Source of the DNA: Chloroflexota bacterium
GTDB lineage: Bacteria; Chloroflexota; Chloroflexia; Chloroflexales; Roseiflexaceae
DNA: 42,944 bases
Reading direction: 5' to 3'
Assembly: GCA_018969485.1 (NCBI GenBank)
Contig: JAGWYG010000022.1
Location: forward strand, 1-42,944
Made by a program: the position numbers and the translations under genes. Below the pieces are notes generated by a model. It ran no database searches. It was given only the letters and a program-made list of their open reading frames with translations, and was not told the origin of the DNA. Positions 10,858 through 42,944 of this stretch are shown here, piece after piece; position 1 is the first letter of the stretch; every line of letters begins with the position of its first letter.

Positions 10858-12729
<1,872 letters not shown>

Positions 12730-12756
12730 CCGACAGTGACGCGCTCATCGTGGTGG

Positions 12757-12788
12757 CGCCGCCGATCACCTCCGGGTGGTCGGCGGCG
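12757..12788 (+). terminator. dnaK terminator hairpin
   Basis: A 14-base stem (12757-12770 with 12775-12788), including one T-G pair, closes a TCCG loop of the very stable UNCG type and is followed by TTGT. It begins 28 bases after the dnaK stop codon, which is typical for a factor-independent terminator. Confidence 0.7.
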
Positions 12789-12811: not shown

Positions 12812-12953
12812 CGAAGACACGAAGGGGCGGGAATATCACACGAAGACACGAAGACACGAAGGGGCGGGAATATCACACGAAGACACGAAGACACGAAGAG
12901 GCGGGAATATCACACGAAGACACGAAGACACGAAGAGGCGGGGAAAACTACAC
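12812..12953 (+). repeat. Tandem 37-base repeat array, left arm of GxxExxY element
   Basis: Units at 12812-12840 (29 bases), 12841-12877, 12878-12914 (37 each) and a diverging one at 12915-12953. Each consists of two or three copies of cgaagaca, then aag(g/a)ggcggg, then aatatcaca. The short first unit lacks one 8-base cgaagaca step. There are no unique spacers, so this is not a CRISPR array. The array begins about 23 bases after the dnaK terminator. Confidence 0.9.
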
Positions 12954-13011
12954 AAGAACTTGAGAGCGCACAGTTACGAATGTGCGCAGATATGAAAGAC
13001 ACATAGCTGGT

Positions 13012-13434
13012 ATGAATACGGAAGAACTATCGGCTATTGTTATCGATACTGCTTTCCACATCCACAAGGAGCTTGGACCAGGGCTGCTCGAGTCTGTCTA
13101 TGAATCGATTCTTGCACGGTCGTTGAAACGGCGTGGGCTGAGAGTGGAACGCCAGAAAACGATCGTCTTCGAATACGATGGAATGACATTTGATGAGGGC
13201 TTGCGAGTTGATCTATTGGTGAATGAACAGCTTGTCGTCGAGCTGAAATCCGTCGAAGCACTCGCTTCTGTGCATACCAAACAACTGCTCACATATCTCC
13301 GCCTGCTGAACCAACCAATGGGAATACTGATCAACTTCGGCGCAGCAACATTCAAGGAAGGCTGCAAACGCGTCGTGAATGGCCCTCAATCTTTTACATC
13401 TTCGCGTCTTCGCGTGAATCAGAACAAACCATAA
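13012..13434 (+). CDS. GxxExxY protein (PD-(D/E)XK nuclease-like, PF13366)
   Basis: A 140-residue protein of the GxxExxY family. The name-giving motif is GLLESVY (G24, E27, Y30), and a PD-(D/E)XK-type core is seen as RVDLLV (D67) followed by VVELKS (E77, K79), with QLLTYLR after it. These residues would form a nuclease-type metal site, but no biochemical role is established that I know of. ATG 13012 matches the usual family start MNTEEL; a GTG 10 codons upstream is possible. The gene is roughly 45-50% GC against about 70% around it, a sign of transfer. The last 16 or so residues are translated from repeat sequence. It sits between repeat arrays of opposite orientation. Confidence 0.88.
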   Translation: MNTEELSAIVIDTAFHIHKELGPGLLESVYESILARSLKRRGLRVERQKTIVFEYDGMTFDEGLRVDLLVNEQLVVELKSVEALASVHTKQLLTYLRLLNQPMGILINFGAATFKEGCKRVVNGPQSFTSSRLRVNQNKP

Positions 13435-13466
13435 GGCTGTACACATGCCATGAATGGTCCGCAATC
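13376..13466 (+). repeat. Duplicated 3' end of the GxxExxY gene
   Basis: tgaatggccctcaatc at 13376-13391 (inside the gene) recurs as tgaatggtccgcaatc at 13451-13466, 75 bases later, 14 of 16 bases identical. Both copies are followed by cttcg-type repeat sequence, so the gene end and the repeat were duplicated together. Confidence 0.65.
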
Positions 13467-13600
13467 CTTCGTGCCTTCGTGTGAGCCCGTCTCCCGGCCC
13501 GTCTCCCAGCCCTTCGTGGCTTCGTGGCTTCGTGTGACCCCGTCTCCCAGCCCTTCGTGGCTTCGTGTGAGCCGGTCTTCCAGCCCTTCGTGGCTTCGGG
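13400..13600 (-). repeat. Right arm repeat array of GxxExxY element (inverted orientation)
   Basis: A run of cttcgtg-type repeats, the reverse complement of the left arm's cacgaag. After an early copy at 13400-13416 (cttcgcgtcttcgcgtg), units from 13466 to 13600 follow the pattern cccttcgtggcttcgtg plus a GC-rich cccgtctcccag segment of varying length. Unit lengths differ, so this arm is less regular than the left one. It stops about 30 bases before the stop codon of the facing transketolase-like gene. Confidence 0.8.
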
Positions 13601-13631: not shown

Positions 13632-15980
13632 TCACCGGCGCAGCGCGCGGTCCGCCGCGGCGAACCCGGCGGCGACGATCGCATCGGCATCGATGCCATG
13701 GCTCCGGTAGAGCGCCGTGCGCGCGCCCGACTGGCCGAAGCGATCGACGCCCAGCGCCTGCAGCGGTGCCCCATGGATCGAGCCGAGCCAGGCCAGCGCA
13801 TGGGATGCCGCATCATGGATGGTGACGATCGGCGCAGCCGCCTCGTCCGGCGGGATGAGCCAGTCCAGCGCGGCGCCGGCGCGCCAGCGCTCGTAGAGCT
13901 GTCGCGGGCTGGTCAGGTTCAGGACATTCACCGCGACCCCCTCATCAGCGAGGATGCGCGCCGCGTCCAGCACTTCGGGGATGATGGCGCCGGCGGCCGC
14001 GAGCTGGATCACCGGGGCATCAGCCGCGTGGGCAGCGTCGTGGCGATCGATCAGCCGATAGCCACCCTGGACGACCTGCTGGCGCAGCGTGGCGAGGCCG
14101 AGCCGCGCGATCACCGGCTCGAGCAGCGCCTGGTCGATCGGTCGGGTCGAGAGGCGCAGGTACGTCGCGCGGCCCGCTGTGCGATCACAGCACTGGCGCA
14201 GCCCTTCGAGCAGGGCCCAGCCCAGCTCGAGCGCGAAGCATGGCTCGTAGCTCAGCAGATCCGGCAGCTCCATGCCGAGCGACGGCGTCACCGCCGACTG
14301 ATGCGCGCCGCCCTCGGGGGCCAGCGTCACCCCCGACGGCGTGCCGGCGACGATGAACCGCGCGCCGGAGTAGAGCCCGTAGATCAGGGCATCGAGGCCG
14401 CGGCAGACGAACGGGTCGTAGACCGTGCCGATCGGCAGCAGCAGCTCACCGAGCAGCTCGTGGCTCAGGCCCAGCATCGACAGCGCCATGAACAGGTTCA
14501 TCTCGGAGATGCCCAGCTCGAGGTGCTGGCCGGTCGGGCCGCGCTGCCAGCGCAGCAGCCGATAGACCTCGGCGCTCTCGAAGTCGGGCTCGGCGTGCGG
14601 CGCGAAGACGCCCATGCGATTGATCCAGCCGGCGAGGTTGGTCGAGACCGACACGTCGGGTGAGGTGGTGATGATGCGGCGGGCCAGCGCGGGGATGTCG
14701 GCGAGGCGCGTCAGCGCGCGGCCGAAGCTCTCCTGGGTGCTCGCCAGCCCCTGCCGTGGCAGATCGAGCGTCTCGGGCAGCGCCGCGGCCAGCGCGCGCG
14801 CCTGGTCGGGTGCGGCGGCCGGCGTGGCGGCGGCCGGGTAGAGCCGGGCGGCAGCATGGCGACACCAGGCGCCTGCCGGGCTGTCGTCGGGAAAGCCAGC
14901 CCACAGATCCGCCGGATCGACATCGAGGCGCTGGCGCAACGCCTCGATCTGGCCATCCGAGAGCAATTGCGAGTGGTTGAGCGGATGGCCGGCGATCGGC
15001 AGGCCCCAGCCCTTGATGGTGTAGGCGAAGATGATCGTCGGCTGGCGCGGCGCCGCATCGGCCTGGGCCAGCGTATCGAGCAGCGTCGCGAGATCGTGGC
15101 CGCCCAGATTGGCCACCACCTCGGGCAGCACATCGTCGGCGACGCCGGCCACCAGCGCCGCGAGCCGCTGGTCATCGCCGATCAGGCGCTGGCGCAGCGC
15201 CGCGCCGGGGAGCCGGATCAGCGCCTGGTACTCCTCGTTCGCCATCGTATCGATGCGCTGGCGCAGCCGGTCGCCGTCGGGTTGGCCGAACAGCGCCTCC
15301 AGGCGCGTGCCATACTTGGCCTCGAGCACATGCCAGCCGCTCTCGGCGAACAGGCGCTTGAGCTGGGCCGCGCGGATCCCCGGCACGACGCGGTCGAGGC
15401 TCTGGCGGTTGAGGTCGACGATCCACAGCAGCTGCTCGAGGCCGGCCAGCGCCGGATCGAGGATGGCCTCCCACACGCTGCCCTCGTCGAGCTCGGCATC
15501 GCCGACCAGCGCGATGAAGCGGCGCGAGGTGGCCGTGCCGAACTGCGTGGCCACATAGCGTGCCGCCAGCGCGGCGAACGCCGGCGCCACCGCGCCCAGC
15601 CCCACCGAACCCGTCGAGAAATCCACCGGGTCGGGGTCCTTGGTGCGCGACGGATACGCCTGCAGCCCGCCGTACTCGCGCAAGGTGGCCAGGTAGCGTC
15701 GCGGCAGTTGCCCGAGCAGGTACTGGATGGCGTGGAAGACCGGCGAGGCATGCGGCTTGACGGCGACGCGGTCGCCATGCCGCAGCGCATGAAAGTACAG
15801 GGCGGTGAGGATGGTCACCATCGACGCCGATGACGCCTGATGGCCGCCGACCTTGGTGCCGTCGGCGTTGGGCCGGATGTGGTTTGCGTGATGGACCATC
15901 AGCGTCGCCAGCCAGAGCACGCGCCGCTGGATCACCTCAAGGGTGGCGATGGTCGCCTGATCGTACTGTGCCATGGTCAT
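13632..15980 (-). CDS. Transketolase / AceE-like thiamine-diphosphate enzyme
   Basis: A 782-residue thiamine-diphosphate enzyme. GGHQASSASMVTIL, HASPVFHAIQYLLG and the cofactor motif VGDAELDEGSVWEAI (near residue 160) ending in VDLNRQSLD resemble the homodimeric pyruvate dehydrogenase E1 (AceE) and its transketolase-like relatives rather than classical transketolase. The pyrimidine and C-terminal domains follow (LELGISEMNLFM; SVGLG earlier). It could act in the pentose phosphate pathway or as a 2-oxoacid decarboxylating enzyme; sequence alone does not decide, and no lipoyl acyltransferase gene is nearby. Two starts, ATG 15980 and ATG 15974, share an upstream GGAG; the more upstream one is listed. 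It follows minE in the same direction. Confidence 0.78.
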   Translation of the reverse strand: MTMAQYDQATIATLEVIQRRVLWLATLMVHHANHIRPNADGTKVGGHQASSASMVTILTALYFHALRHGDRVAVKPHASPVFHAIQYLLGQLPRRYLATLREYGGLQAYPSRTKDPDPVDFSTGSVGLGAVAPAFAALAARYVATQFGTATSRRFIALVGDAELDEGSVWEAILDPALAGLEQLLWIVDLNRQSLDRVVPGIRAAQLKRLFAESGWHVLEAKYGTRLEALFGQPDGDRLRQRIDTMANEEYQALIRLPGAALRQRLIGDDQRLAALVAGVADDVLPEVVANLGGHDLATLLDTLAQADAAPRQPTIIFAYTIKGWGLPIAGHPLNHSQLLSDGQIEALRQRLDVDPADLWAGFPDDSPAGAWCRHAAARLYPAAATPAAAPDQARALAAALPETLDLPRQGLASTQESFGRALTRLADIPALARRIITTSPDVSVSTNLAGWINRMGVFAPHAEPDFESAEVYRLLRWQRGPTGQHLELGISEMNLFMALSMLGLSHELLGELLLPIGTVYDPFVCRGLDALIYGLYSGARFIVAGTPSGVTLAPEGGAHQSAVTPSLGMELPDLLSYEPCFALELGWALLEGLRQCCDRTAGRATYLRLSTRPIDQALLEPVIARLGLATLRQQVVQGGYRLIDRHDAAHAADAPVIQLAAAGAIIPEVLDAARILADEGVAVNVLNLTSPRQLYERWRAGAALDWLIPPDEAAAPIVTIHDAASHALAWLGSIHGAPLQALGVDRFGQSGARTALYRSHGIDADAIVAAGFAAADRALRR

Positions 15981-16196
15981 CACGCTCCGCTCGCTTCGCC
16001 GGCCGCACGCTGCTCCGGCCATCATAGCAGATGCGCGACCGCTGGCCGCCGCGGCGTGCGGGGGGCATGCGCGGCGCCCGGGCCATCGGGGCTGCGCGCG
16101 CCGTAGCGCATCCGTCGGCGCAGCGCACCACAGGCACGCCGGGGGACGCAACGCGGGCGATCCGGCCGGGCGCAGCGGGACGGCGCGCACGCCCGG

Positions 16197-42894: not shown

Positions 42895-42910
42895 GAAGCC
42901 GTCCCACGCT

Positions 42911-42944
42911 CGAAGGCACGAAGGGGCGGGAGACGGGAGGCGGG
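42911..42944 (+). repeat. Start of another cacgaag-type repeat at the window edge
   Basis: The last 34 bases hold cgaaggcacgaaggggcggg followed by agacgggaggcggg. The first part equals the left arm unit of the element at 12812 (acgaaggggcggga) and the second equals the reverse complement of the right arm's cccgtctccc segment. It begins 16 bases after the transporter stop codon and runs out of the window. Confidence 0.75.

Follow-up and report, generated by a model that had tools for sequence, protein, structure and literature searches.

GxxExxY nuclease genes between inverted heptamer arrays: a candidate two-part repeat-spreading element in bacteria

Introduction

The closest described counterpart of the locus discussed here is the pairing of REP sequences with REP-associated tyrosine transposases (RAYTs). 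This pairing was established by three lines of evidence, i.e., inverted repeats flanking the gene, coevolution of gene and repeat, and a correlation with repeat abundance (PMC2817692). Repeats built of heptamers have been described as well. Excerpts of PMC4679880 present the TAACTGA heptamers of Beggiatoaceae, Cyanobacteria and Bacteroidetes as intergenic direct repeats with two to six copies per set, and no nuclease is tied to these repeats in the excerpts. A literature search by family name and accession, by repeat sequence and by REP and nuclease terms, covering mostly papers outside subscription journals, gave no link between GxxExxY proteins and repeats.

The window analyzed here is a stretch of 42,944 nucleotides from a Chloroflexota bacterium. 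It contains a GxxExxY gene between two arrays of short inverted repeats, and the comparison of this locus with GxxExxY loci in other bacteria points to a kind of repeat-spreading element that has not been described before, consisting of a small orphan nuclease gene and its matched repeats.

Organization of the home locus

The cassette spans window positions 12812-13598, where the GxxExxY gene is enclosed by inward-facing CACGAAG arrays in the convergent gap between dnaK and an aceE-like gene. The upstream neighbor dnaK (10858..12729, plus strand, stop at 12729) is recognized by HSP70 (850 bits) and by the DnaK models. On the other side, with its stop at 13632, lies a convergent gene for an AceE/transketolase-like ThDP enzyme (13632..16190, minus strand). 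Its product matches Transketolase_N above the cut-off and the aceE model with 211 bits, which is under that model's own cut-off, and it resembles a homodimeric PDH E1/AceE-like protein more than a transketolase. The initial annotation had placed the cassette between the convergent 3′ ends of dnaK and a transketolase-like gene, which is correct for dnaK but has to be revised for its partner. Since the neighbors encode DnaK and an AceE-like enzyme and no reverse transcriptase is found nearby, the retron-like nature that it proposed is abandoned. The GxxExxY gene itself (13012..13434, plus strand, with an alternative GTG start at 12982) encodes a predicted PD-(D/E)XK nuclease of 140 amino acids that matches the TIGR04256 and PF13366 profiles. 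It was rightly described as GC-poor in a GC-rich setting, with 48.2% GC compared to 66.8% for dnaK, 72.0% for the aceE-like gene and 69.6% for the window.

The left array (12812..12942, plus strand) holds ten gene-facing CACGAAG heptamers arranged as spacer-separated triplets, at 12818, at 12839/12847/12855, at 12876/12884/12892 and at 12913/12921/12929. The same stretch is read by TRF as 3.5 copies of a 37-bp unit with 98% match. On the right, all heptamers are on the minus strand. The gene-proximal ones are two CGCGAAG copies at 13400 and 13408 (13400..13414), falling within the 3′ coding end of the GxxExxY gene, where they code for ...SSRLRVN. A second group consists of two CACGAAG copies at 13467 and 13475 (13467..13481), and the outer part (13512..13598) has gene-facing CACGAAG at 13512, 13520, 13528, 13553, 13561 and 13586, with 33-bp units at 13520-13598 (93% match, TRF). 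The outer part is also covered by the inverted-repeat pairs I1-I16. Allowing at most two mismatches, the octad pair CACGAAGNCACGAAG is present 14 times in the window, where 0.41 occurrences would be expected. The basic repeat unit consists of a 7-mer and one additional free base and occurs in triplets, and the 37-mer is a higher-order unit. The three and a half 37-base units first noticed on the left, and the oppositely oriented units on the right, are real, but the 37-mer is not the elementary repeat.

A terminator-like inverted repeat just 3′ of dnaK (I18, 12757..12788, no strand assigned) delimits the insertion on its outer left side. Because window positions 12752-12785 match the same-genus genome G001, this inverted repeat is partly common to both genomes. 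At the far end of the window (42909-42944), the contig stops inside another CACGAAG unit with GC-rich spacer, of which a degenerate pair is seen at 42909-42923.

The GxxExxY protein

Nucleases of the RecB/Cas4 type have their active-site residues in the layout E...D...ExK...QxxxY. The window protein matches TIGR04256 over its full length with 134.1 bits (cut-off 35) and PF13366 (PDDEXK_3), its sole Pfam match, with 134.7 bits (cut-off 22). In 34 aligned GxxExxY proteins, the invariant residues are G22, G24, E27, Y30, D67, E77, K79, N108 and F109, while Q91 and Y95 are almost invariant. From this conservation, the catalytic residues are predicted to be E27, D67, E77xK79 and Q91xxxY95. The AlphaFold2 model (pLDDT 91.6) has as its best structural match SSO0001, a Cas4 nuclease (Foldseek E 2e-3; VIA Z 10.1, 109 residues, 19% identity), with Hjc, BamHI-like and LHK-Exo folds ranking below it. 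The Cas4 profile in PADLOC gives a weak match (E 6.5e-4), and a sequence-profile search of the PDB with the window protein found no solved structure. Motifs and modeled fold together assign the protein to the PD-(D/E)XK nuclease superfamily, with nuclease activity as the predicted function.

A divergent GxxExxY subfamily (L135, L136, L139, L140 and L141) scores only ~30-65 bits with the HMM, and no heptamer arrays were found in the flanks of its genes. Possibly this subfamily has been domesticated or represents a separate branch.

Heptamer arrays at other GxxExxY loci

GxxExxY loci were collected from the order of the home genome, from its phylum and from named genomes of other phyla, 194 in total. 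As the 34-sequence alignment was too diverse for scanning contigs, a narrower alignment was used for the genomes of other phyla, and the resulting locus set is biased to relatives of the window protein.

With a pattern derived from the first cases, tandem heptamers facing inward on both sides are found at 48 of the 70 loci in the order, and outward-facing ones on both sides at nine. The same inward pattern is absent on either side of AceE-like control loci (0/28 flank pairs) and of four-helix-bundle genes from the same genomes (0/29). A motif-free test leads to a comparable result. An identical inverted tandem heptamer is present on both sides of 34 of 68 loci in the order (re-paired flanks: mean 3.1, maximum 6) and of 36 of 89 other loci, mostly from other phyla (re-paired: mean 4.3, maximum 9). 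The heptamers retrieved in this way are overwhelmingly C[AG]CN[AG]A[GT], in this or a shifted register. Altogether, inward arrays on both sides are counted at 123 of the 194 loci, which is a lower bound, as part of the remaining 71 bear other repeats such as CTATGATT or CGCGAAA. At 97 of these 123 loci the left and right arrays lead with the same heptamer, compared to a mean of 11 and a maximum of 24 after re-pairing. The earlier view of gene and inverted arrays as a unit is borne out by the recurrence of the combination across phyla.

In general, an array has three heptamers per side, which is the commonest number, at a spacing of 8, 9 or 10 nt, and the median distance of the arrays from the conserved domain is 55 bp on the upstream and 35 bp on the downstream side. 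Nineteen heptamer types were counted, all fitting C[AG]CN[AG]A[GT]. One GxxExxY clade (L115, L118, L310, L314 and L315) is flanked by CTATGATT-type repeats instead, the type of L118 being deduced from its kinship to L115, and L308 is flanked by CGCGAAA. The heptamer repertoire is thus wider than counted.

Four-helix-bundle (TIGR02436) genes of the order have short tandem repeats of their own, with the unrelated sequences GAGTGAY, TGAGAAC and TAGAACA. At 3 of 27 loci, and at none of the re-paired controls, a heptamer recurs in inverted orientation on the other side of the gene; repeats are seen at L262, L282 and L286 (also L270/L271). These genes and their repeats may form a second protein/repeat pairing of similar logic.

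Coupling of heptamer and protein

On a tree of 117 GxxExxY proteins, the heptamer changes 48 times, while shuffling gives a mean of 86 and a minimum of 81 changes. Protein pairs with at least 90% identity always have their heptamer in common; sharing drops to 58% of the pairs at 70-80% identity and to 3-6% at 30-50% identity. The heptamer type thus follows the protein tree.

In addition, gene and heptamers are exchanged at orthologous sites as one cassette. One example is a site occupied within a single genus by a CACAGAT cassette in four species (L049) and by a CACGAAT cassette in two (L106/L113). Between L049 and L106, the flanks are 92-96% identical and the proteins 62%. The L049 cassette moreover holds a stray ATTCGTGGCTAAAAA that resembles the right-hand terminus of the L106/L113 cassette. 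Similarly, L037, with CACAGAG, and L112, with a CGGAT-type repeat that escaped the automatic detector and was recognized by eye, have flanks of 95-98% identity and proteins of 46% identity. At L061, a CGCGAAG cassette adjoins a CGCAGAT cassette that is broken there but intact in L105. Visual inspection of L061 also revealed an ORF resembling an MNT-type nucleotidyltransferase between two adjacent GxxExxY cassettes of genome G057 (L061:2234-2524, reverse-complement coordinates).

At some orthologous sites the element is absent or gene-free, and present in relatives. Other sites are stably occupied. In sphingomonads (L347, L147-L183), the GxxExxY gene keeps its place in a fatty-acid operon, with fabD and fabG on either side, in different species, and in genus g11 two sites are occupied in all six species. 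From this fixed position and full occupancy it follows that movement is not frequent everywhere.

Gene-free copies and repeat abundance

In the home genome (G000, 4.02 Mb), CGAAGNCNCGAAG matches 308 times on the forward and 288 times on the reverse strand, with 1 and 0 matches for the reversed control. This genome has a single GxxExxY gene, so its CACGAAG arrays are nearly always without one; the genome-wide check proposed at the outset, whether such a gene is always inside, has a negative outcome for the roughly 600 tandem matches. A stricter CACGAAG pattern matches 550 times in G000 and six times in G001, in which no GxxExxY gene was found. Many G000 contigs terminate within CACGAAG arrays; these arrays probably broke the assembly, and their true number is probably higher.

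The dnaK junction was compared with that of close relatives, as had been proposed. In G001, where the flanks of the dnaK/AceE-like junction are 89-91% identical, the cassette is missing: the junction has no gene and no long array, only an octad hairpin that is degenerate and about 62 bp long. CACGAAG arrays were likewise found in none of the other relatives read on the 3′ side of the AceE-like gene. Because of these absences, the cassette at this junction is considered lineage-specific.

In relatives, gene-free solo copies are compact hairpins of three heptamers, a loop and three reversed heptamers, resembling a cassette minus its gene. An example is L247, which has the form CCACGAAGCCACGAAGGCACGAAG-loop-CTTCGTGCCTTCGTGGCTTCGTGG and sits in an intergenic gap. 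The solo hairpins L240-L248 begin at CCACGAAG and have no GTAG or CGTC tag at their foot. Solo copies are located in intergenic gaps, often directly after stop codons. When polymorphic solo sites are aligned, an intergenic stretch turns out to be replaced rather than cleanly interrupted, and at sites B and C the solo copy replaces a terminator-like hairpin between relatives. The proposed alignment of boundaries revealed no clean target-site duplication at the G001 junction or the polymorphic solo sites, whose flanks have diverged, nor at the L032 site in seven congeners, nor in about 100 kb of three g21 genomes, and no sharp insertion boundary was found at the sites compared.

Unlike these compact hairpins, the triplets of G000 have been amplified into units of like orientation that include a GC-rich spacer. 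A long array of a single direction is also seen at L375 (G047:C1:1516800-1520500), with units of about 96 bp of which most carry three CACAGAG/CACGGAG heptamers. Local amplification of units would be a separate and later process.

Genomes with a cognate GxxExxY gene hold more copies of the matching repeat. At least 15 tandem CACAGAG matches are present in all 12 genomes with a CACAGAG-flanked GxxExxY gene and in 4 of the 70 others (Mann-Whitney p 4e-9, for genome counts that are not phylogenetically independent). The enrichment persists at 6e-8, likewise ignoring kinship between genomes, when 12 matches are removed for the own locus. Genomes with non-cognate GxxExxY genes do not differ in CACAGAG counts from genomes without GxxExxY, and in the nine genera that include both kinds of genomes, the mean CACAGAG count of the cognate genomes is higher in all nine. 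The test was repeated for CGCAGAT, whose cognate set had been fixed in advance, and gave a p of 3e-5, again ignoring kinship. There are exceptions. The complete genome G045 has 88 CACAGAG matches and no GxxExxY gene, and scanning the regions between its CACAGAG arrays for decayed GxxExxY found none. G075 has 49 CGCAGAT matches; a CGCAGAT-flanked gene was expected among its further GxxExxY copies, and the two further copies read carry other heptamers. The possibility raised at the outset of repeats scattered independently of GxxExxY genes is thus half right: copies of the repeat lie dispersed with no gene inside them, yet there is a statistical link with a cognate gene in the genome.

Several carriers and drivers were considered and rejected. 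No GxxExxY match was present among 50,697 phage records, three loci were found in 2.9 million viral contigs, and 8 of 72,556 plasmid records had a match, all of them typed as non-mobilizable. The rejection of a RAYT as hidden driver applies to two genomes, the home genome with one weak Y1 match and its congener G001 with none.

Proposed mechanism and alternative explanations

Probably, the gene and arrays of the window are one copy of a widespread two-part nuclease/heptamer element that works as follows. The nuclease would bind its cognate heptamers, most likely as folded single strands or hairpins of the inverted triplets, and would nick or cut there. Repair or strand transfer could then move or copy the unit of heptamers to new sites, mostly between genes. 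Both the cassette that encodes the nuclease (in cis) and the gene-free copies (in trans) would serve as substrates, much as has been proposed for RAYT transposases and REPs. The cassette itself would be self-mobile, and the route of spread transposition-like or of a cut-and-repair (homing-like) type. The association of GxxExxY genes with cognate inverted heptamers is held with much higher confidence than this mechanistic statement. More tentative, at a little under even odds, is the idea of a new element class in which a lone RecB/Cas4-like nuclease without known transposase or recombinase reads inverted-triplet heptamers and disperses gene-free hairpins, with a specificity that is readable from the protein.

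An unlikely but coherent alternative is a homing-type cassette, whose nuclease cuts arrays or cassette-free sites and which spreads by host homologous repair; solo arrays would then be decayed or resident landing pads instead of elements multiplied by the nuclease. The differing nuclease-heptamer cassettes at the same orthologous site (L049/L106, L037/L112 and L061/L105), the leftover right-end-like sequence in the CACAGAT cassette of L049 and the small octad hairpin already present at the gene-free G001 junction all fit such a history. Homing alone, however, does not account for hundreds of gene-free copies beside one cognate gene, nor for solo hairpins at many unrelated intergenic sites. Less probable still, the arrays could be hairpin terminators or mRNA-stabilizing repeats spread by another agent, with the nuclease gene merely lying among them and using them for its own expression or autoregulation. 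Solo copies are indeed strong intergenic hairpins, often just past stop codons, and two of them take the place of a terminator-like hairpin. This explanation fails on the tracking of the protein tree by the heptamer, on the left/right match per gene and on the higher repeat numbers in carriers of the cognate gene, and the home genome shows no evident alternative driver.

Two further possibilities are more remote. It is very doubtful that the protein is a Cas4-like anti-phage or anti-plasmid nuclease, with arrays that label the chromosome as self or control the nuclease. The PD-(D/E)XK core and the weak Cas4 similarity in PADLOC would agree with a defense function, but beyond this shared core no convincing model match was obtained, GxxExxY is almost absent from phage and viral records, and the neighbors are housekeeping genes. 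That the arrays are microsatellite-like products of chance or passive slippage, confined to the home genome, is scarcely credible: although local amplification does occur, as shown by the 37-bp and 33-bp units in the window and the about 96-bp units of G047, the same architecture is found with differing heptamers across phyla, far above re-paired controls.

If the two-part element is real, it would tell what a nuclease family of many bacterial phyla, which lacks a known role, does and on which DNA it acts. It would likewise explain where the common short tandem repeats come from that clutter environmental genomes and interrupt their assemblies. Since each protein seems to have its own 7-base word, the family would be a natural set of sequence-specific nucleases with a readable code. 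Finally, it would constitute a second, independent case of REP/RAYT logic.

Comparison with known systems

With Cas4 and RecB nucleases, GxxExxY proteins share the predicted fold and the motifs (E, D, ExK and QxxxY). They differ in consisting of the ~120-residue core alone and in occurring outside a CRISPR or RecBCD context. The TAACTGA repeats, as far as covered by the excerpts of PMC4679880, are likewise heptamers with a patchy distribution between phyla, but their sequence is outside C[AG]CN[AG]A[GT] and their orientation is nearly always direct.

The strongest resemblance is to the REP/RAYT system, and the REP-type comparison made in the initial annotation is supported on each of its three lines of evidence. 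The GxxExxY gene lies between two inverted repeats (at 123 of 194 loci, and so at the window locus), repeats and protein coevolve (48 changes compared to 86 after shuffling), and the abundance of cognate repeats tracks the presence of the gene for two heptamers, with G045 and G075 as exceptions. Gene-free palindromic copies in intergenic gaps are a further similarity. The proteins, on the other hand, are PD-(D/E)XK (Cas4/RecB-like) and not Y1 HUH transposases (PF01797), and the repeat is a C[AG]CN[AG]A[GT] heptamer triplet and not a GTAG- or CGTC-tagged palindrome. As GxxExxY proteins lack the Y1 HUH domain and their repeats lack the REP tag, they are not RAYTs; the GxxExxY system operates like REP/RAYT without being a member of it.
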